Shown in pieces: positions 5,751-15,889 of a DNA stretch of 64,000 nt. The translations under genes were made by a program, and so were the position numbers. This DNA is from Lutibacter sp. Hel_I_33_5 (GTDB lineage: Bacteria; Bacteroidota; Bacteroidia; Flavobacteriales; Flavobacteriaceae). Location of the stretch: the NCBI RefSeq assembly GCF_007827455.1, contig NZ_VISM01000001.1, forward strand, positions 3,033,001-3,097,000. The letters run 5' to 3'. Each line of letters begins with the position of its first letter. The first letter of the stretch is position 1. The notes under the pieces were generated by a model. It had not been told where the DNA came from, searched no databases, and worked only from the letters and a program-made list of their open reading frames with translations.

Positions 5751-6962
5751 TTATTTCTTTTCTATGAGCGCCATATAAAATCCGTCAAAACCAGAAATGT
5801 GAGACAGTACTTTTTTATCGGATACAAAAGAAAACTCTTTTCCTGCTTCAGAAGCTAAGAACTCTTCCACTTGTAATTGGTTCTCAGATGGCAAAACAGA
5901 ACAGGTTGCGTATACTAGTTTTCCGCCTGGTTTTACCATTTTTGAATAGCTCTGTAAAATTTCTTGTTGTATTTTTTTAATGTTATCGATAAATTCTGGT
6001 TGTAATTTCCATTTAGAATCTGGATTTCTACGAATAACACCTAAACCAGAACACGGAGCATCAATTAAAACTCTATCAGCTTTTCCGTGTAATTTTTTGA
6101 TTGGTTTTGTAGAATCAATCACACGCATATCAATATTATGCGCTTTATTTCTTTTTGCTCTTACTTTTAATTTACGCAATTTACTTTCGTAAATATCCAT
6201 CGCAATAACTTGCCCTTTATTTTCCATTAAAGCTGAAAGATGTAATGTTTTTCCTCCCGCACCAGCACAGGTATCTACAACTTTCATTCCTGGTTTTACG
6301 TCTAAATAAGCTGCAACAAGTTGCGATGAAGCATCTTGAACTTCAAAAAAACCGTTATGAAATGCTTCTGTTCTAAAAACATTGGCTCTCTCTTCTAAAA
6401 TTAATGCATCTGGATGATTTGGAACTGGTAATGTATTTACATTCTCAGTTTTTAATTTCTTTTGAAGGAGTTCTCTACTGATATTTAATGTATTAGTTCT
6501 TAGAATTACACTAGCTTGTTTGTTTAAAGCGGCTATTTCTTTTGTCCAAATATCTTCACCTAATTCTGAAACACATAACTCATCCATCCAATCTGGAATA
6601 GATTCTCTATATTTTCTAGTTTTAGAAAGTTCAGCAAAACGACCTTTAATTCTTCTTTCTGGAACATCACCAATCTGATTCCAATCGGGTAGGGCAATAC
6701 CTCTTAAAATACACCATACAGAAAATAAGCGCCAAATATTATCTCTATCATAAGGTGCTTTTACTTCTGCAATTTCTGCGTATAACCTATTCCAACGAAC
6801 AATTTCGTAAATAGTTTCTGCCACAAACTTTCTGTCTCTGCTTCCCCAGCGTTTATCTCTTTTTAACGCTTTTTCTACTGCCTTATCTGCATAAACTCCT
6901 TCATTAAAAATATCTCGGATACTATCTATTACTGCAAAAGTTAAGTTTCTATGTAATCTCAT
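5751..6962 (-). CDS. RsmB/NOP-family RNA (cytosine-C5) methyltransferase
   Basis: This 403-residue protein has the NOL1/NOP2/Sun architecture. An N-terminal RNA-binding helical region (residues 1-140) precedes a class I SAM-dependent methyltransferase domain. Visible motifs are the SAM-binding VVDTCAGAGGKTLHL (about 225-240), the motif IV cysteine in DAPCSGLG (about 304), and the motif VI catalytic cysteine in YATCSVLPSEN (about 353). The paired cysteines are the m5C methyltransferase signature. Its probable substrate is 16S rRNA, as for RsmB, but paralogues with other RNA targets exist, so no symbol is assigned. It is monocistronic, with its own promoter and terminator. Confidence 0.9.
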   Translation of the reverse strand: MRLHRNLTFAVIDSIRDIFNEGVYADKAVEKALKRDKRWGSRDRKFVAETIYEIVRWNRLYAEIAEVKAPYDRDNIWRLFSVWCILRGIALPDWNQIGDVPERRIKGRFAELSKTRKYRESIPDWMDELCVSELGEDIWTKEIAALNKQASVILRTNTLNISRELLQKKLKTENVNTLPVPNHPDALILEERANVFRTEAFHNGFFEVQDASSQLVAAYLDVKPGMKVVDTCAGAGGKTLHLSALMENKGQVIAMDIYESKLRKLKVRAKRNKAHNIDMRVIDSTKPIKKLHGKADRVLIDAPCSGLGVIRRNPDSKWKLQPEFIDNIKKIQQEILQSYSKMVKPGGKLVYATCSVLPSENQLQVEEFLASEAGKEFSFVSDKKVLSHISGFDGFYMALIEKK

Positions 6963-7017: not shown

Positions 7018-10000
7018 TTAATTTTTCTTTGTAAAGTCTTTAAAAATAACCTTTCTCCGTTTTTCAACAACATAGAAGGAAATATAAACGCCATCTTGAG
7101 AATTTTTGAGTTTCATTGGGATGTTATTTCTTGAGATTTTAAAACGTTCTCCTAAGATTTGTTCGTCCATAGTGACCGTATAATCTCCAAAAGGTAAATA
7201 GAATTCGAATCGTCCTTTCTTGTTTGTAAGTGTGCTATAAGCGTTGGTGTTTTTTATTGCGGTAATTTTTATTCTTGATAAATCGATAGCTGCTTTATCG
7301 GCTACCGCAATTTTCTGACGGTCTAAAATGACGTCTCCATAAACTTTAACACCTCTTACAAAGGGAATGTGAGTTATTCCGTCATCAATAATAAAAATTG
7401 AATCTTTTACATTCGGAAACCACCCATTTAGTTTTTCTAATGAAAATGTTTCTAGCTTGTATTTATTTTTCTGAAGATTTTTAACGATTGCTTCTCCATT
7501 AGCATCCGTTAGTACTTCATTTTTATTCAATTTAACAACAACATTTTCTAAAGCACTTTCGTTAGCATCTTTTATACTATTTCCATTAATATCAAGAAAA
7601 GCAACTATTTTTTTAGTGGCATTTACTTTTTTAGCAAAAGGAATCGGAATTCCGAAATCTTTTCTTAGGCTAAAATTCAAATTAAAATTACTGTTTATTA
7701 TTGGCCCCGAAGTACCGAAGGTGTTATTGTTTTGTTGATCTACATTGTCGAAAACAGAACTGAAATCTGATGAGCTAAATGTATAATTTGCACTTAAACC
7801 AAAACGCCAACCTGTATCTGTAAAGTAATAGACATTAGGAAATATTCCTGCGGTATGATTATTAAATACGTTATTAAAACTATAGATAAGATTAGATTCT
7901 AAGACTAATCTTCTATTAGGAAATTGATATTGATTTTGCAACGAAAGTCGTATAGATTGAGGCGTTAAAAAGTCGTTTGTACTTGCTTGTGAAGTAATGG
8001 AAGAAAAAGAACCTAGACTATATAAAGCATTAAAGTTCCAGGTTTTATATCTAATTAAGCCTGTAACTTGTAAGTTAAAATAGTCTTTTGCATCTATAAT
8101 ATCTTTTGCTCTAGCATACCCAACTCTTGTAAAAACAGAGGCTAAAAAGTTATTCAAGAAATTAAATTTAGAGTATCTAAAGGTTGCTCCTCTGTTTAAT
8201 AATGAATTATTGGGTATATTTCTATTTTCGTAATATAAACCTGTTTGATAGGAGCCACTATCATTTTTTGTAGAAAATACAAGGTTAGAGAATACTAAAT
8301 CTTGTTTATATAATTGATTATTATTGATATCGTATGACGTTAAATCTTGATAGTTTGTAGATAAAAACGAACTCCAATTATTGTTAATTTTATACTGTAC
8401 TCTATTGTTTGCAACAAATCTTTCAAAATTTGAAAAACTAAAGTTTTTATCATTTACTCTAAAACTTGTATTTACTTTTAATCTCTTTTTTAGAAAGGAG
8501 GCATTATAACTACCGCCAAACATAAAGCCTTTTCTAGTTTCTGAAGTGTTTAAAATTTCTTTATTAGAAAATACAGTATTAATATTAATACCATGCTTGT
8601 TAAATATTTTTGCGTTCGCACTTAAAGAAGCAATGGTTATGTTTCTATTTGAAATATTATTTATATTTCTACCAACACTTGCGGTAATTTCATAGCCATT
8701 ATAAGGTCTAAATCGATACCAACCACCAAAAGTTCTATTGTTTTTAGAATCAAAAAATCCATTTGAGTTTACAAAAAATGCACCAGCTGCATGTTTTTCA
8801 GAAAATAAATAGGACGCTTTTACACCTGTACCAGCATTGGCAATTCCAATTAAATTTCCGCTTACTTGCCCAACTTCAATGCTCTTTTTTTCATCAAAAT
8901 AACCAACATACCACGGCATGTTATTAAAAACATTGTTGGTGAAAAAAGCATTACTATAATTTATTTGAGTAGAGTAAATAATATTAGCTTTGGAATTAAG
9001 CTGTTTAAAGCCTCGTAAACTTAATGCAAGAAAAGAACGATCATCTAGAACGTTTTGTGCGTTTAATTCTACTGTTAATGGTAAATAAGGGTATCCGTAA
9101 GGATTAGCCTCTAATTCATTAGGCAGTTTTACAAAATTTAATTTTGTTCTTTTCCTTGAAAAATTACTTTCAAATTTTGGTTCACTACTATTAATAATCA
9201 ACGAATGTGTTTTTCGCTTCTTATTTTTATTTGGTAAATAGGTGTTTAAAGAAATTCGTTTATGGTTTCTTTTTAGCAAATTATTAATATTAGCAACATA
9301 ACTAAACTCTTTTTGAGCTCTTGGTTCTAAACTAATTGTTGTATTAATGTTCTTTAAACGATTAAATAAAGTATCCGTAAGAAATAAGTCTTTTTTAGGA
9401 ATGTTAAAGTTGATAAACAAATCTTGATTGTTGTTTCCAGTATTTATTACAGAAAAGTCAAATCGTTTCGTTGTTTCACCATTTTTAAAATAAATATTTG
9501 TGTTATTTGGAGCGCTTAATGCCCAAGAAATTCTTTTTTTAGTTTTTAAAGAAAAGAAATTATTTGCTAATTGCTGGTCTTCTTCACCAACTAAAAAGGT
9601 ATTAACTATTATTTCTGTATTTCCATTAATTAATTTTCTTGGGCTTATAATTATCGGTACATATAAGGTATCGTTAGCTTTTACAGTATATGTTTTTGTG
9701 GCATCATCAATTCGTGTCCAGCCACCAGGATAAATTAAATCTGTTTTAAAACGTATTTCTTTTTTACCAATATTTACAATATGCAAAACGTTAGAAACTA
9801 CTTCTCCAGGTTTTAAATTAATAATTTTTCTAGCATACTTTGTCAGTAAATTTCCGCTTCTTAAAAACTCATTATCTTCATCTTCTTCGATAAAATTCCT
9901 TTTCCCAGGAGCAACTAAAGTTTTAGAAATACTTTGTGTTATGGTGTCTTTTGGAATTATTGATTCACTTATTTGTTTTTTTTCTTCTGCTTTATTTACG

Positions 10001-11274
10001 ATATCTTCTAAAATTGTAAAATCACCTTCTTTTGAGTTGATTTTCTTCTCTTCTTTATTGGTTGGAGTGGTAGTAACTATTTCAGGTAATTCAGCAACTG
10101 TCTTCTTTTGTGGTGCGCTAACTATTGTAGATTCATTTTCTTTTGAGTTAATTTTCTCCGTTTCTTTTTTTGTTGGCGTAGTAGTAACTATTTCAGGTAA
10201 TTCAGCAACTGTCTTCTTTTGTGGTGCGCTAACTATTGTAGATTCATTTTCTTTTGAGTTAATTTTCTCCGTTTCTTTTTTGGTTGGAGTGGTAGTAACT
10301 ATTTCTGGTGATTCAGCAATAGTCTTTTTTTGAGGTGCATTTATTATTGTAGATTCATTTTCTTTTGAGTTAATTTTCTCCGTTTCTTTTTTGGTTGGAG
10401 TGGTAGTAACTATTTCTGTTGATTCAGCAATAGTCTTTTTTTGAGGTGCATTTACTATTGTAGATTCACTTCCTTTTGAGTTAATTTTCTCCGTTTCTTT
10501 ATTGGTTGGATTGTTAACAGCTACTTCTGACGATTCAGCAAGTATCTTCTTTTTATTCAGTACAACTTCTTGAGCTGGATTAATATCTTCTTTAATTACT
10601 ATTTTGCTTTTTGCATTTTCTTTTTTCTTCAGAACAGTTTTTTCAAGAGCTTTTGTTATTTCTTTTGTTGCTGATGCAATTGATTCTTTTTTCTCTTTTA
10701 CTTCAGTATTAGGACTTTCTGATGTTGTCTTTTTCTGATTTAATGCAACTTCCTCTTTTGATTCTGTTACACTATTTTTTTCAATAGAAGGATCTTCTTT
10801 AAGATGTATGATTTCTTTTAAAGTAATTGGATCGATTATTTTTTTTGGTGGAGGTTTTACTTCAGTAAAAACTACTTCTTTATTTTCGTCTTTAATTTTT
10901 TGCTTAACGTTCTTTGCAAGTCGCTCTAGTTCTAAATTATTTTTAAGTGTTTTTAAAGAGTCTAATTTCTTTTTTCTTTGAAGTAAAGCATAACGTTTTT
11001 GTTTAAGCTTATCTAAATCTCTTGCTTTTTTTTCTGCAATTCTAATTTTCCTAGCCTCTTGTCTTACCTTTAATCGTGCTTTTTTAATAGAATCTTTTTT
11101 TCTTTTTTGGGCAATTTTTGCAGCTCTTATTTTTTTTAATATAGTAGCTCTAGATTCTTTTTTTACAGGAATTGTATCGTTTTCTTGAGAAAAACTTGAT
11201 TGCGAGCATAGAAGAGCACAAATGAATAAAAGTTTATAAAGAAATTTTAATAAAGAAGAATTATTGGTTTTCAA
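7018..11274 (-). CDS. large outer-membrane protein with usher-like layout
   Basis: I do not recognise this 1418-residue protein as a named family, but its layout is clear. A signal peptide (1-30) is followed by a very basic, probably coiled-coil segment (40-160), a Lys/Thr/Pro-rich linker holding tandem 37-residue repeats (about 245-415), Ig-like beta-sandwich regions (about 460-700), a long stretch of alternating amphipathic strands typical of a large beta-barrel (about 720-1220), and two C-terminal beta-sandwiches. The first of those has an SdrD/CNA-B-like VAFLDINGNSIKDANE and the second is of carboxypeptidase-regulatory type (GRFEFYLPFGDYTV). A barrel bracketed by small beta-sandwich domains in an operon with a PapD-like chaperone and two small secreted proteins recalls a chaperone-usher secretion pore. 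That role is inference. It starts 4 bp after the 209-residue subunit gene. Confidence 0.75.
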   Translation of the reverse strand: MKTNNSSLLKFLYKLLFICALLCSQSSFSQENDTIPVKKESRATILKKIRAAKIAQKRKKDSIKKARLKVRQEARKIRIAEKKARDLDKLKQKRYALLQRKKKLDSLKTLKNNLELERLAKNVKQKIKDENKEVVFTEVKPPPKKIIDPITLKEIIHLKEDPSIEKNSVTESKEEVALNQKKTTSESPNTEVKEKKESIASATKEITKALEKTVLKKKENAKSKIVIKEDINPAQEVVLNKKKILAESSEVAVNNPTNKETEKINSKGSESTIVNAPQKKTIAESTEIVTTTPTKKETEKINSKENESTIINAPQKKTIAESPEIVTTTPTKKETEKINSKENESTIVSAPQKKTVAELPEIVTTTPTKKETEKINSKENESTIVSAPQKKTVAELPEIVTTTPTNKEEKKINSKEGDFTILEDIVNKAEEKKQISESIIPKDTITQSISKTLVAPGKRNFIEEDEDNEFLRSGNLLTKYARKIINLKPGEVVSNVLHIVNIGKKEIRFKTDLIYPGGWTRIDDATKTYTVKANDTLYVPIIISPRKLINGNTEIIVNTFLVGEEDQQLANNFFSLKTKKRISWALSAPNNTNIYFKNGETTKRFDFSVINTGNNNQDLFINFNIPKKDLFLTDTLFNRLKNINTTISLEPRAQKEFSYVANINNLLKRNHKRISLNTYLPNKNKKRKTHSLIINSSEPKFESNFSRKRTKLNFVKLPNELEANPYGYPYLPLTVELNAQNVLDDRSFLALSLRGFKQLNSKANIIYSTQINYSNAFFTNNVFNNMPWYVGYFDEKKSIEVGQVSGNLIGIANAGTGVKASYLFSEKHAAGAFFVNSNGFFDSKNNRTFGGWYRFRPYNGYEITASVGRNINNISNRNITIASLSANAKIFNKHGININTVFSNKEILNTSETRKGFMFGGSYNASFLKKRLKVNTSFRVNDKNFSFSNFERFVANNRVQYKINNNWSSFLSTNYQDLTSYDINNNQLYKQDLVFSNLVFSTKNDSGSYQTGLYYENRNIPNNSLLNRGATFRYSKFNFLNNFLASVFTRVGYARAKDIIDAKDYFNLQVTGLIRYKTWNFNALYSLGSFSSITSQASTNDFLTPQSIRLSLQNQYQFPNRRLVLESNLIYSFNNVFNNHTAGIFPNVYYFTDTGWRFGLSANYTFSSSDFSSVFDNVDQQNNNTFGTSGPIINSNFNLNFSLRKDFGIPIPFAKKVNATKKIVAFLDINGNSIKDANESALENVVVKLNKNEVLTDANGEAIVKNLQKNKYKLETFSLEKLNGWFPNVKDSIFIIDDGITHIPFVRGVKVYGDVILDRQKIAVADKAAIDLSRIKITAIKNTNAYSTLTNKKGRFEFYLPFGDYTVTMDEQILGERFKISRNNIPMKLKNSQDGVYISFYVVEKRRKVIFKDFTKKN
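10030..10540 (-). repeat. 111-bp tandem repeats in the usher-like gene
   Basis: The motif encoding KINSKE recurs at exact 111-bp spacing (plus-strand landmarks 10030, 10141, 10252, 10363 and 10474). Units encode 37 residues such as KKTVAELPEIVTTTPTKKE. Central copies are almost identical in DNA, pointing to recent expansion or gene conversion. The spacing is a multiple of three, so copy-number changes would keep the frame. Confidence 0.9.
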
Positions 11275-11278
11275 ATCT

Positions 11279-11908
11279 TTATAAGTTTTCTGATAATAGG
11301 AATCTAATATTTAATTTGAATATTCCTGGATTAAAAGAAAAGTCTGGTTTAAACCTAATATCAACATTAAAATTAAACTCATTATAATTTGTTAAATAAC
11401 TTCCTGCACCATTTATATTATCTGTACAGCTTCCGGCTGGAGTAACTGGTAACATCTGTTCTATGATATCTAAAATATCATTTGCATCTGTAAACGATCT
11501 ATAAATTCCATCTGAAGGTGATGTAGTACAAGAATTCCTTACTCTAATTTCTAAAGAATTTATTAAAGGGTTTTGACCATTTCCATTACCATAAGTAGTA
11601 ATTTCTTCCCATTCTGTAGGTGGAGTTCCAGCACCAGAATTATTATCAATAAACATACGCAAACTCCAAGAACATAATGGATCTGGTGTGTTTTTATCTT
11701 CTACGGTTACTCTAATTCTTGTAACACTATTAATTGTAATACCAGATTGGTAATTCGTAAAATTATCAAAAACCATTAAAGAGTTTACAGTTGTATCTGG
11801 CGTTATAGAAACATCGCCACAATGAATTTGAGCATTGCTTGTTGTAGTTGCCCAAAATAACACGACTACTATTAGAAAATTTAATACTTTAGATAGTTTT
11901 AAAATCAT
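11279..11908 (-). CDS. small secreted subunit-like protein B
   Basis: This 209-residue protein has a signal peptide ending near SNAQ. I know no named family, but it is visibly related to the 256-residue protein encoded just upstream. Both share an FDxxxxYxxGIT motif, a following strand ending in a W-x-L element, and nearly superimposable C-termini (PGIFKLNIRFLLSEN here, PGVYTMYVQYVLLED there). It contains several cysteines (Cys30, one in DPLCSW, others in RNSCTT and GSCTDN) that could form disulfides, unlike its partner. It sits between the hairpin at 11918-11956 and the usher-like gene. By position it could be a minor or tip subunit of a surface structure; that is inference. Confidence 0.65.
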   Translation of the reverse strand: MILKLSKVLNFLIVVVLFWATTTSNAQIHCGDVSITPDTTVNSLMVFDNFTNYQSGITINSVTRIRVTVEDKNTPDPLCSWSLRMFIDNNSGAGTPPTEWEEITTYGNGNGQNPLINSLEIRVRNSCTTSPSDGIYRSFTDANDILDIIEQMLPVTPAGSCTDNINGAGSYLTNYNEFNFNVDIRFKPDFSFNPGIFKLNIRFLLSENL

Positions 11909-11917
11909 TCTTATTAT

Positions 11918-11956
11918 AAAAAGGATGTAACTAAGTAATTAAGTTACATCCTTTTT
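11918..11956 (-). terminator. hairpin between the two subunit genes, terminator or attenuator
   Basis: A perfect 15-bp stem (AAAAAGGATGTAACT, 11918-11932, against 11942-11956) with a 9-nt loop ends in a T-run on the minus strand. It lies in the 68-bp gap after the 256-residue gene. A partial terminator here would make the first subunit more abundant than the second and the outer-membrane protein. Confidence 0.8.
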
Positions 11957-11976
11957 TAATTACATTTTTATTTTTT

Positions 11977-12747
11977 TTATTGGTCTTCTAGTAAAACATA
12001 TTGTACATACATTGTATATACTCCAGGTTCTGCATAGTTACCCGCAGCATTTGCAGTTACAATATCTTCTGCAGCAGCTGTTGTTTGATTAAATGCATTT
12101 GGGAATACAGCCGGTAAACTTGGTAAAATTCTATAATCCATTACATAGTAAAAGTTAGAAGATGTACCAGTTTGGTTTAAATAACTACCACCAGCCATAA
12201 AATCTCCAGTACCAGTTGTACCATCGTGTCCAGCAATATATTTGTTATTTAAGTCTGGTGCGTTAGAACCACCATCATCATTTACAAATACACTATTAGA
12301 TCCAGAAGGAGTACTTGCATTTGGAAAACGTGCACTATAATCTCTAAAAGGACCAGTACTTGCTCCACCACCAGTATTTGCTTGACTCTGTCTAAGCTCT
12401 AATAAACTGATAGGTAAGTCTGATATAGAATTTGAAGAACTTCCGTAAGATACTTGTTGATCCCAAAATCTATTTCCTCTTTGCGATCTACCTACTGCAT
12501 ATAAATCCCAGTTTACTGTAGAACTTACTTTTAATATAGTACCACCATGTTGGGTAATACCTGCATTGTACTCATTCACCTCATCAAAAACGAATTCGAT
12601 TTGATTCGGAGTAGTCATTTCTAATTGCAACACCGGTTGCATGTCTAATGTGATTGACACATCTTTTTCGTCAATCAATTGTGCGTTGGCAGATGAAAAT
12701 ACACCTACTAGTAGCACTGCTGTAATTACTAAATTTAGTTTTCTCAT
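11977..12747 (-). CDS. small secreted subunit-like protein A (possible major subunit)
   Basis: This 256-residue protein has a clean signal peptide (cleaved near SANA-QLID). It is rich in Gly, Ser, Asn and beta-strand pattern and has no cysteines in the mature part. It carries the same FDxxxxYxxGIT motif, W-x-L element and C-terminal strand as the 209-residue protein downstream. The closing PGVYTMYVQYVL resembles the last strand of pilin-like and WxL-like beta-sandwiches. It is encoded 48 bp after the PapD-like chaperone and directly before a strong hairpin, a position favouring high expression. A polymerising or surface-coating subunit is the best guess. No named family is recognised. Confidence 0.65.
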   Translation of the reverse strand: MRKLNLVITAVLLVGVFSSANAQLIDEKDVSITLDMQPVLQLEMTTPNQIEFVFDEVNEYNAGITQHGGTILKVSSTVNWDLYAVGRSQRGNRFWDQQVSYGSSSNSISDLPISLLELRQSQANTGGGASTGPFRDYSARFPNASTPSGSNSVFVNDDGGSNAPDLNNKYIAGHDGTTGTGDFMAGGSYLNQTGTSSNFYYVMDYRILPSLPAVFPNAFNQTTAAAEDIVTANAAGNYAEPGVYTMYVQYVLLEDQ

Positions 12748-12795
12748 AATAAATAAAATTTAAGGGAGTTTTTGTTAATATTAATTTTTTATAAT

Positions 12796-13662
12796 TTATT
12801 TGATTTCAAATTCCATTTTTGCTGCTTGTATTTCATCAGAACTTTCGTAATCTAATACTCCTACAGCCAAATATTTTCCACTAGGGAGTTTATCTGGTAA
12901 TGTAAAAGAGAAGTTTCTTTCTAGTTCTGGTATGATAGTAAACTTTTTCACTTTTAATCTTTCTTGTTGCCCAGTACTTAAATTTGTTAAATCTATATAA
13001 GAAGTACAATACGCAATTCCGTCTCCAGTATTTTGAACTTTTAAAAATAAAGAGGCAGTATCTTCTGACTGATCAAACTGAAAATCAGTGAACTCTACTT
13101 TATTAGATAATACATTTGGCGGATTTTGATAAGCAAAAATTCCAAATGCAAAAGTTGGTATTACTCCTAAGGCAACTGTACCATTACTTTTACGTGTATT
13201 TGCTAAAGAGGTTCTTGGAGCTTCTTGTTCTACCATTAAGATAGACCAAGCTGCTTTTCTACCAGAATCATCATTAGGAACACTAACGGTAACTTTTACT
13301 AATCTTTTTTCGAAAGGCTTTAATTCTACAAAAGTAGGAGAGACGCTTAACCATTTAGATAATGAATATTTTCCTTTTCCAGGAGGTAAAAAACTACTCT
13401 TACCTCTGCTATTCATATCAAAGTCATACATGTTTACATTAAACTGCATGTTACTATTCGTACTATTATTAATAGTAATATTATAGGTTTTTACTTCTCC
13501 TTGTTTTTGATTGAAATGGAAATGTGCAGGTGAGACCGAAACTCCAGTGGATTTACGAGCAGGTTTGTTTTGACTATTGACATTCTGAGTGTTTAAACAA
13601 ACAGAAAAAACCAACATAATCATCAAAACTGAATATAGGGGAATTCTAGTTTTTAGGGGCAT
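12796..13662 (-). CDS. PapD-like periplasmic assembly chaperone
   Basis: The 288-residue protein has an N-terminal signal segment (1-31) and two beta-sandwich domains. Domain 1 (about 38-180) opens with VSVSPAHFHFN and a strand ending in an N-x-S turn (TYNITINNSTNS), as in fimbrial chaperones and DUF916-type proteins. It ends with alternating hydrophobics in TVALGVIPTFAFGIFAY (161-177), which looks like the G1 donor strand that chaperones lend to subunits. Domain 2 (about 185-288) is a second Ig-like sandwich. It is the first gene of the operon and has the best promoter seen in the window. The role inferred is holding the two small secreted proteins in the periplasm until they reach the outer-membrane protein encoded by the last gene. 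Confidence 0.75.
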   Translation of the reverse strand: MPLKTRIPLYSVLMIMLVFSVCLNTQNVNSQNKPARKSTGVSVSPAHFHFNQKQGEVKTYNITINNSTNSNMQFNVNMYDFDMNSRGKSSFLPPGKGKYSLSKWLSVSPTFVELKPFEKRLVKVTVSVPNDDSGRKAAWSILMVEQEAPRTSLANTRKSNGTVALGVIPTFAFGIFAYQNPPNVLSNKVEFTDFQFDQSEDTASLFLKVQNTGDGIAYCTSYIDLTNLSTGQQERLKVKKFTIIPELERNFSFTLPDKLPSGKYLAVGVLDYESSDEIQAAKMEFEIK

Positions 13663-13689: not shown

Positions 13690-13719
13690 CAAATTTAGAA
13701 TTTAATAAACAAATCCAAA
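13690..13719 (-). promoter_or_regulatory. promoter of the chaperone/subunit/usher-like operon
   Basis: On the minus strand TTTG (13716-13719) is followed after 18 bp by TAAATTTG (13690-13697), an almost ideal flavobacterial sigma-A promoter. The predicted leader before the chaperone ATG is about 20 nt. Confidence 0.65.
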
Positions 13720-13789: not shown

Positions 13790-15889
13790 TTGATTTCGCT
13801 ACAAAAACCAATTACATATATAAAAGGTGTTAGCCTTAATAAAGCAGCACTATACTACAAGGAGCTAGGTATAAAAACATGTAATGATCTATTGCATTTC
13901 TTTCCTTTTAGATATATTGATAAAACTAATTTTTATGCTATTAAAGATTTACAAATTAATAGTTCAGAAGTACAGGTTGTAGGTAAAATAACTCATATTA
14001 AGTCTGTTACGCAAAAAAGAGGGAGTCGATTAGTGGCAACTTTTGTTGATACTTCGGGTACGATAGAGCTTATTTGGTTTAAAGGGCAAAAGTGGATTAA
14101 AGATTCTTTAAAGGTTAATGAACCTTATGTTGTCTATGGTAAATTGAATCATTATAAAGGAAGTTTTAGTATTCCGCATCCAGAAATGGAACTTGTTTCA
14201 GAATATAAAAAGAAGTTGCAACCAAAAATGCAACCAGTGTATCCTTCCACAGAAATGTTGGCTAATAAAGGGATCAGCAATAAAGTTACACAAACAAGTA
14301 TGCTACATCTTTTTACAGAGATTTATGATGGCATTCAAGAAAATTTACCAGACTACCTTATAAAAGAACATAACTTACTGAATAAAAAGGATGCTTTACT
14401 GAATATCCATTTCCCTAAAAGTCAGGAATTATTAGCAAAAGCATCGTATCGATTAAAGTTTGAAGAGTTGTTTTTTATTCAATTACAATTAATTCAGAAA
14501 AAATTGATTCGTAAACAAAAAAATAAAGGATTTGTTTTTGAGCAAGTAGGTGAGCATTTCAATACTTTTTATACAAACTACTTACCGTTTAGTTTAACCA
14601 ACGCTCAGAAAAGAGTATTAAAAGAGGTAAGAAAAGATGTTGCTTCCAATGCACATATGAACCGATTATTACAAGGCGATGTTGGGTCTGGAAAAACCAT
14701 TGTTGCATTATTATCTATGTTATTAGCAATAGATAATGGTTTTCAAACGGCTATTATGGCTCCAACAGAAATCTTAGCAACTCAACATTATACAGGTATT
14801 ATTGAGTTATTATCTGAAATGGACATCAATGTTGCTTTATTAACAGGTTCAACCAAAGTAAAAAAACGAAGAGAAATTCATGAAAGCCTAGAAAACGGAA
14901 CGTTACATATATTAATAGGTACACACGCTTTATTAGAAGATAAAGTACAATTCAAAAATTTAGGAATCGCAATTATTGATGAACAACATCGATTTGGTGT
15001 TGCGCAACGTTCAAAATTGTGGTTGAAAAATAAAATCCCACCACATATTTTAGTAATGACAGCAACGCCAATTCCGAGAACTTTAGCGATGTCAGTTTAT
15101 GGGGATTTAGATATTTCTGTGATTGACGAATTACCACCCGGTAGAAAAGAAGTGAAAACAGTACATCGATATGATAGTAATCGCTTGTCAGTTTTTAAAT
15201 TTATGAAAGATGAAGTTGCAAAAGGAAGACAAGTATATGTTGTTTATCCATTAATTCAGGAATCTGAAGCCATGGATTATAAAGATTTGAAGGATGGTTA
15301 TGAAAGTATATCACGAGAATTTCCTAATCCGAAATATCAAATAAGTATTGTTCATGGAAAAATGAAACCTGCGGATAAAGAATTTGAAATGAATCGTTTT
15401 GTTAAGGGCGAAACTCAAATAATGGTAGCAACAACTGTTATAGAAGTAGGTGTTAATGTACCAAATGCTTCGGTAATGATTATAGAGAGTGCCGAGCGAT
15501 TTGGATTAAGTCAGTTACATCAATTACGAGGTAGGGTTGGACGAGGAGCAGACCAAAGTTATTGTATATTATTATCTAGTTTTAAATTGTCTTCGGAAGC
15601 CAAAACACGTTTAAAAACCATGGTTGAAACTTCAGACGGATTCAAAATTGCAGAAGTAGATTTAAAATTACGAGGTCCAGGAAATATGATGGGAACACAA
15701 CAAAGTGGTGTATTAAATTTAAAAATTGCTGATGTTGTTAAAGATACTCCTATTCTGGTAAAAGCTAGAAATACAGCTATAGAACTATTACAAAACGATC
15801 CAAGTTTATCTAAACCAGAAAATACCGTATTGCAAAAAGCTTTTTTAGAACTTCAAAAAACTAGTGGTTTGTGGGGTAATATTAGTTAA
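13790..15889 (+). CDS. recG: ATP-dependent DNA helicase RecG
   Basis: RecG (699 residues, normal length) reverses stalled replication forks and branch-migrates Holliday junctions. An N-terminal wedge/OB domain (about 60-170) precedes two helicase lobes. Walker A is GDVGSGKT (296-303), motif II is DEQH (about 395) in IIDEQHRFGVAQR, motif III is MTATPIPRTLA, and motif VI is QLRGRVGRG (about 577). The start is TTG at 13790; the reading MISLQKPITYIKGV matches where the wedge domain should begin, and no ATG lies nearby in frame upstream. The gene is divergent from the chaperone operon and convergent with ndk. Confidence 0.96.
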   Translation: MISLQKPITYIKGVSLNKAALYYKELGIKTCNDLLHFFPFRYIDKTNFYAIKDLQINSSEVQVVGKITHIKSVTQKRGSRLVATFVDTSGTIELIWFKGQKWIKDSLKVNEPYVVYGKLNHYKGSFSIPHPEMELVSEYKKKLQPKMQPVYPSTEMLANKGISNKVTQTSMLHLFTEIYDGIQENLPDYLIKEHNLLNKKDALLNIHFPKSQELLAKASYRLKFEELFFIQLQLIQKKLIRKQKNKGFVFEQVGEHFNTFYTNYLPFSLTNAQKRVLKEVRKDVASNAHMNRLLQGDVGSGKTIVALLSMLLAIDNGFQTAIMAPTEILATQHYTGIIELLSEMDINVALLTGSTKVKKRREIHESLENGTLHILIGTHALLEDKVQFKNLGIAIIDEQHRFGVAQRSKLWLKNKIPPHILVMTATPIPRTLAMSVYGDLDISVIDELPPGRKEVKTVHRYDSNRLSVFKFMKDEVAKGRQVYVVYPLIQESEAMDYKDLKDGYESISREFPNPKYQISIVHGKMKPADKEFEMNRFVKGETQIMVATTVIEVGVNVPNASVMIIESAERFGLSQLHQLRGRVGRGADQSYCILLSSFKLSSEAKTRLKTMVETSDGFKIAEVDLKLRGPGNMMGTQQSGVLNLKIADVVKDTPILVKARNTAIELLQNDPSLSKPENTVLQKAFLELQKTSGLWGNIS

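Follow-up and report, generated by a model that had tools for sequence, protein, structure and literature searches.

In the flavobacterium Lutibacter sp. Hel_I_33_5, a minus-strand operon of four genes probably encodes a pathway for building an extracellular fibre, one that is chaperone-usher-like but deeply diverged. The operon lies within a stretch of 64,000 nucleotides (contig NZ_VISM01000001.1, positions 3,033,001 to 3,097,000; hereafter the window, from whose first letter positions are counted). In order, it contains CHAP (a candidate periplasmic chaperone), SUB1 and SUB2 (two small secreted proteins, the putative subunits) and USH (a predicted outer-membrane protein). It is not a canonical chaperone-usher operon: USH has neither the Pfam usher signature nor a plug. 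The evidence comes from the genes and their linkage, the homology between SUB1 and proteins whose multi-chain structures are solved, the barrel predicted for USH, an asymmetry between the N termini of the two subunits, and a conserved hairpin behind SUB1.

An operon conserved as a unit

An initial annotation of this DNA had proposed one minus-strand operon with the four genes in this order, and all four open reading frames were confirmed at the coordinates it gave. USH begins with a TTG start codon 4 bases after SUB2. The two small secreted proteins are related, as that annotation had said (SUB1 versus SUB2, hhalign probability 98.4). No NCBIfam model matches any of the four proteins over its cut-off.

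The four genes travel together. A search with a USH alignment against one genome per species of GTDB 220 gave 28 public loci in other genomes, ranging from Flavicella and Polaribacter to a Bacteroidales and other Bacteroidetes metagenome-assembled genomes (31–57% identity). The order CHAP-SUB1-SUB2-USH is kept in 23 of the 28, so the arrangement is more than chance. Four of the other five loci are interrupted by a contig end (L010, L018, L030, L033) and one retains only part of USH (L034). L032, counted among the 23, has CHAP and USH frames each broken in two beside intact SUB1 and SUB2; it is either a decaying copy or a product of sequencing errors.

In the window the operon is flanked by recG (13790-15889, +) and an rsmB-like gene (5751-6962, -), names that we read from the sequence. 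Nine loci share this placement (L008, L009, L011, L012, L019, L021, L022, L029, L032), three show one of the two flanks (L010, L013, L034), and neither flank is seen in the rest of the 28. Because the flanks vary, it is the four genes, and not their neighbourhood, that form the conserved unit. In one congener (G020, locus L002), all that is left between recG and rsmB is a remnant of 58 codons from the 3' end of USH, interrupted by two stops, which indicates that the operon was lost at that site. A genome search with full-length USH found no intact copy among 23 congeners; with at most the 15 best candidates per genome scored, it reached at least 2 of 39 genomes, the Lutibacter genome itself and the remnant included. 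Within the family, with at most the two best candidates per genome scored, at least 6 of 299 genomes had a match, again including these two. In three distant loci (L024, L027, L028) USH is followed on the same strand by a secreted protein of about 1000 residues that reads like an M1 aminopeptidase.

Subunits related to solved multi-chain structures

SUB1 is not structurally novel, because its profile matches solved chains. The matches in the PDB are 9ikk_A (TLP-2, 5.3e-61) and 9ikj_A (TLP-1, 6.1e-60), from entries of 16 chains each; the search itself gives neither the method nor the symmetry of these entries. The alignment spans chain residues 2-235/236, the N-terminal strand included, and the homology covers the full mature length of SUB1. 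We take TLP to stand for Tsinghua Lotus Pond, and the two entries to be helical filaments from the CryoSeek work (PNAS 2024). According to a review (PMC12967142), no conclusive identification was possible for filaments from pond water studied by cryo-electron microscopy. At least 1092 relatives of SUB1 exist among 5.8 billion proteins (7996 best candidates scored). The SUB2 profile reaches 9.9e-5 against 9ikk over the whole sequence, with no single stretch significant alone. Neither subunit matches any Pfam family at E<=10.

By a simple pattern rule, mature SUB1 starts at about Q23 and begins QLIDEKDVSITLDMQPV. Residues 30-39 form a candidate N-terminal donor strand. In an alignment of 24 SUB1 sequences (the partial SUB1 of L018 omitted), positions 30, 32, 34 and 36 are hydrophobic in all 24, positions 29, 33, 35 and 37 in none, and position 31 in one. 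Mean identity is 0.88 over the first 17 mature residues and 0.90 over the last 20, against 0.69 in the middle. SUB2 has 18 residues before the shared core motif where SUB1 has 29. In 21 of 24 loci its N terminus falls short by about 11 residues, whereas in L025, L026 and L035 it is longer and has extra Cys; this split was read by eye from the sequences, since the motif rule misplaces the core in some rows. Cysteines 30, 79, 127 and 161 of SUB2 are invariant in 24/24. The sequence pattern is thus that of an alternating N-terminal strand in the main subunit that one partner lacks. A short N terminus fits a tip subunit, and the tip is the likely place of SUB2.

An orphan paralogue of SUB1 (271 residues, E 1.9e-85) lies about 5 kb left of the window (G000 C1:3027223-3028035; L040 9221-10036, -). 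It retains the N-terminal strand, has its own GC-rich hairpin and T run downstream, and adjoins neither a chaperone nor an usher gene.

An usher-like protein without a plug

USH consists of a hydrophobic N terminus, a Lys-rich extension, two N-terminal beta-sandwiches, a barrel and two C-terminal sandwiches. AlphaFold2 modelled residues 470-1418 from a 77-sequence alignment with a pLDDT of 84.8 (the single-sequence model, at 28.5, was useless). The model predicts the barrel bracketed by beta-sandwiches that had been proposed from the sequence. Between model residues 261 and 741 it has 27 strand segments, which probably make up about 24-26 strands. The longest gap between barrel strands is about 20 residues in the model, leaving no plug domain.

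In a Foldseek search of the PDB, the FimD/PapC ushers rank best for this model (5e-15). The likeness is to a predicted fold, that of a large barrel with C-terminal domains, and TM-scores are 0.27-0.39; MtrB fits the barrel alone better than the ushers do. The Pfam usher family PF00577 has no match in USH at E<=10 and none in the whole 3.1-Mb genome (the E. coli control was positive), and Pfam picks up only the C-terminal sandwich domains, below threshold. The initial annotation had drawn a parallel with chaperone-usher pili while judging that USH departs from canonical FimD/PapC. Both views are borne out, the parallel by the predicted barrel, the Foldseek ranking and the gene linkage, the departure by the missing Pfam signature and plug.

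The N-terminal module of USH appears chaperone-like in both model and sequence, as mixed CHAP and USH profiles align with each other with an hhalign probability of 94.6 over 189 columns. The repeats noted earlier in the N-terminal extension are present as a 111-bp tandem array. The extension itself has to be called lineage-specific, because among 120 listed homologues of 363 found only 21 exceed 1200 residues, the other 99 having 960-1199.

A putative chaperone that aligns with FimC through its wider family

The best Pfam match of CHAP is PF06030 (WxLIP/DUF916), at 7.7e-6 just under the family cut-off. In an alignment of 22 sequences (which omits L008, the broken L032, and L010, L018, L030, L033 and L034, where no CHAP is shown), 19 match PF06030 at E<=0.1, the best at 2e-11. 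PF00345 is matched weakly by two of the 22 (best 0.0094). PapD belongs to the same immunoglobulin (Ig) superfamily as the PF06030 match. CHAP profile matches to synaptotagmin in the PDB look like chance Ig/C2 similarity, and we set them aside.

We compared profiles with an E. coli set of 6 chaperones, 5 ushers and 11 pilins (EcpA, YadL, YfcP, YfcQ, YcbU, YcbV and the adhesins not used). We rely on hhalign values from local mode; global mode gave 77.8 for the pilins, 94.2 for the chaperones and 3.4 for window-clade CHAP against USH. Thirteen wider Bacteroidota chaperones align with the six E. coli chaperones with a probability of 84 over 199 columns, and with FimC across both domains. Probabilities of 84-87 are reached only with this wider family, against 1.0 for the window-clade CHAP. 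Local comparison with the E. coli pilins (0.4 for the 11) and the 5 ushers shows no profile similarity.

A candidate donor strand, G1-like, can be placed at CHAP residues 163-178. Positions 163, 165, 167, 171, 173 and 175 are hydrophobic in 95-100% of the 22 sequences; the alternation is imperfect, with 164, 168 and 172 mostly hydrophobic too. In the wider-family alignment hhalign places this stretch on FimC NTLQLAIISRIKLYYRP, which we take to be the FimC G1 strand.

Relatives across the Bacteroidota

On its own, the SUB1 profile gave matches in two of a set of 395 evenly drawn Bacteroidota genomes. In a more diverged relative (G641) all four genes are present but run in the order USH-CHAP-SUB-SUB. 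With it included, the USH profile matched 34/395 genomes, many via a short C-terminal stretch only. The twelve matches with frames of 931-955 residues and E up to 4.3e-8 (L072-L083) all have a homologue of the chaperone close to USH (E 6e-23 to 3e-40), plus one to five small secreted proteins.

Profiles of the wider families, run over the same 395 genomes, gave 17 full-length USH (E<1e-200) and 17 strong CHAP (E<1e-80) matches, in 12 genomes. All 17 of each are paired within 3 kb (31-2941 bases apart), a result to be read with the caveats that 11 of the 17 pairs themselves supplied profile rows and that the thresholds were chosen after the tables were seen. In a weaker tier, at 1e-5, CHAP matches 96/395 genomes and USH 83/395, many of the latter being an SdrD-like stretch only; a further 16 weak USH matches, selected by eye, have a CHAP match no more than 2.6 kb away.

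A wider subunit profile (24 small proteins, 177 positions), run on 164 open reading frames, matches only secreted proteins of these clusters at E<=1. L074-L083 each encode one longer protein, ten in all, with a subunit domain at the C terminus (E 1e-19 to 1e-28); about 200-335 other residues precede this domain, whose match to the profile starts at position 20-49. Judged by sequence, these proteins are laid out like two-domain tip adhesins. L072 is a weak case of this domain (1.4e-5), and L073 has a short subunit in place of the longer protein. L078 also encodes a secreted protein of 144 residues (1877-2311) whose match to the profile is confined to the signal and the N-terminal strand (positions 9-54, 1.6e-6); it could be a chain terminator or an anchor.

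Expression signals and feature coordinates

Each hairpin was picked as the best in its own gap, so the pair counts are inflated; random 90-mers and the CHAP-SUB1 gap give a fairer test (scanned gaps were 68-150 bases long). The SUB1-SUB2 gap hairpin scores at least 23 in 25/25 operons and at least 26, the 99th percentile of random 90-mers, in 23/25. By the same scan, only 1 of 23 CHAP-SUB1 gaps reaches 26. SUB2 and USH are separated by at most 16 bases in 21/24 loci. In classical pilus operons, the gene for the major pilin is followed by a hairpin of this kind, which keeps its product in excess. Scans for sigma-70 promoters and for terminators gave chance-level results, the SUB1-SUB2 hairpin not being among the terminator hits. 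A possible Bacteroidota-type promoter lies upstream of CHAP; the window holds 5 matches to its consensus against 2.86 expected, so it lends weak support.

Coordinates of the operon and its features in the window
Feature	Position	Strand	Description and basis
CHAP	12796..13662	-	PapD-like two-domain periplasmic chaperone (putative), 288 aa; PF06030 7.7e-6
CHAP residues 163-178	13129..13176	-	candidate donor (G1-like) strand, then QNPP; hydrophobic pattern and FimC alignment
SUB1	11977..12747	-	putative major fibre subunit, 256 aa; profile match to 9ikk_A, 9ikj_A
SUB1 residues 30-39	12631..12660	-	candidate N-terminal donor strand; alternating hydrophobic pattern
SUB2	11279..11908	-	SUB1-related subunit without N-terminal strand, 209 aa, four invariant Cys; likely tip
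USH	7018..11274	-	usher-like outer-membrane protein (predicted), 1418 aa; AlphaFold2 model and Foldseek
USH tandem repeat	10013..10553	-	111 bp (37 residues) in N-terminal extension; 4.9 copies, 90% match
USH residues 470-699	9178..9867	-	predicted N-terminal beta-sandwich pair, chaperone-like; AlphaFold2 and hhalign
USH residues 707-1210	7645..9156	-	predicted beta barrel, no inserted plug-sized domain; AlphaFold2
USH C-terminal domains	7063..7635	-	two predicted beta-sandwich domains; AlphaFold2, sub-threshold PF13620/PF17210
Hairpin after SUB1	11918..11956	-	15 pairs; best-in-gap scan
Possible promoter	13690..13718	-	Bacteroidota-type, TTG-N18-TAAATTTG, upstream of CHAP; match to consensus, weak

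Elsewhere in the window, 155-934 reads as a secreted protein with pentapeptide-like repeats; an antisense frame (237-638) looks like a by-product.

Discussion

We propose the following route. SUB1 and SUB2 would cross the inner membrane via Sec. CHAP would lend a strand to each subunit and deliver it to USH, whose barrel would pass the subunits as each N-terminal strand displaces the chaperone strand in the next. Lacking a donor strand, SUB2 would enter first and end at the tip; SUB1 would follow and polymerise, giving a filament like those of TLP-1 and TLP-2. By its position after SUB1, the hairpin may keep the major subunit in excess.

The operon resembles chaperone-usher pili (FimA/FimC/FimD, PapA/PapD/PapC) in combining a chaperone, small subunits and a barrel protein, in the Foldseek ranking of USH, in the alignment of CHAP through its wider family, and in having an extension-less subunit or a two-domain protein in the same cluster. 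It differs from them in lacking any Pfam usher or pilin match and in a USH that has no plug and carries a chaperone-like N-terminal module. TLP-1 and TLP-2 are matched by SUB1 over nearly the whole chain, N-terminal strand included. However, the PDB search gives the filament protein only; the operon and the assembly factors come from the present analysis. The system had been put forward as a candidate undescribed one, and none of the open-licence PubMed Central articles that our searches listed describes it in its title or abstract opening, preprints being outside that scope.

The same subunits might instead polymerise by themselves outside the cell after another export step, for example by the type IX secretion system, with USH acting as no more than a membrane anchor or polysaccharide porin. 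The USH barrel alone does resemble many porins and MtrB, and no exporter of TLP filaments is known. However, FimD ranks first for USH, USH is paired with CHAP in every one of the 17 wider copies, and SUB1 and SUB2 match no Pfam family at E<=10 and hence no sorting domain, so that we regard this course as very unlikely. A surface layer of the Gram-positive WxL kind, with CHAP a peptidoglycan-binding anchor (DUF916/WxLIP) that holds SUB1 and SUB2, and USH a separate outer-membrane protein, would account for PF06030 being the best match of CHAP and of most of its homologues. The initial annotation had drawn this parallel, which holds for the chaperone only: none of 24 SUB1 members has a WxL domain at E<=1, nor does the window SUB2. 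Moreover, the Ig superfamily of that match includes PapD, the wider chaperones align with FimC over both domains, CHAP is paired with a predicted outer-membrane barrel, and relatives of SUB1 occur in 16-chain PDB entries. We consider such a layer very unlikely.

A type V pilus of the FimA/Mfa1 kind would suit the phylum, and its fibres are built by strand exchange. Yet type V pilins are protease-processed lipoproteins that need no chaperone or usher, whereas the mature subunits here appear, by the simple pattern rule, to begin at the Gln that follows an ordinary signal peptide, and the fimbrillin families of Pfam give no match; this explanation is scarcely credible.

A diverged chaperone-usher-like pathway, the reading we favour, may extend well beyond Lutibacter. 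We see an even chance that the Bacteroidota hold a second, phylum-wide chaperone-usher lineage with its own subunit family and its own usher design, in which a built-in chaperone-like module replaces the canonical N-terminal domain and there is no plug; one branch of it would make the TLP filaments of natural waters.

The pili usually discussed in Bacteroidota are of type V, and the present operon would place a chaperone-usher-like pathway in that phylum. USH would be an usher that apparently functions with no plug. For a family represented in the PDB by multi-chain structures, the analysis supplies genes, partners and a testable assembly route. TLP-1 and TLP-2, which we take to be filaments, seem to have had no known maker, and operons of this kind may encode the machinery that builds them.
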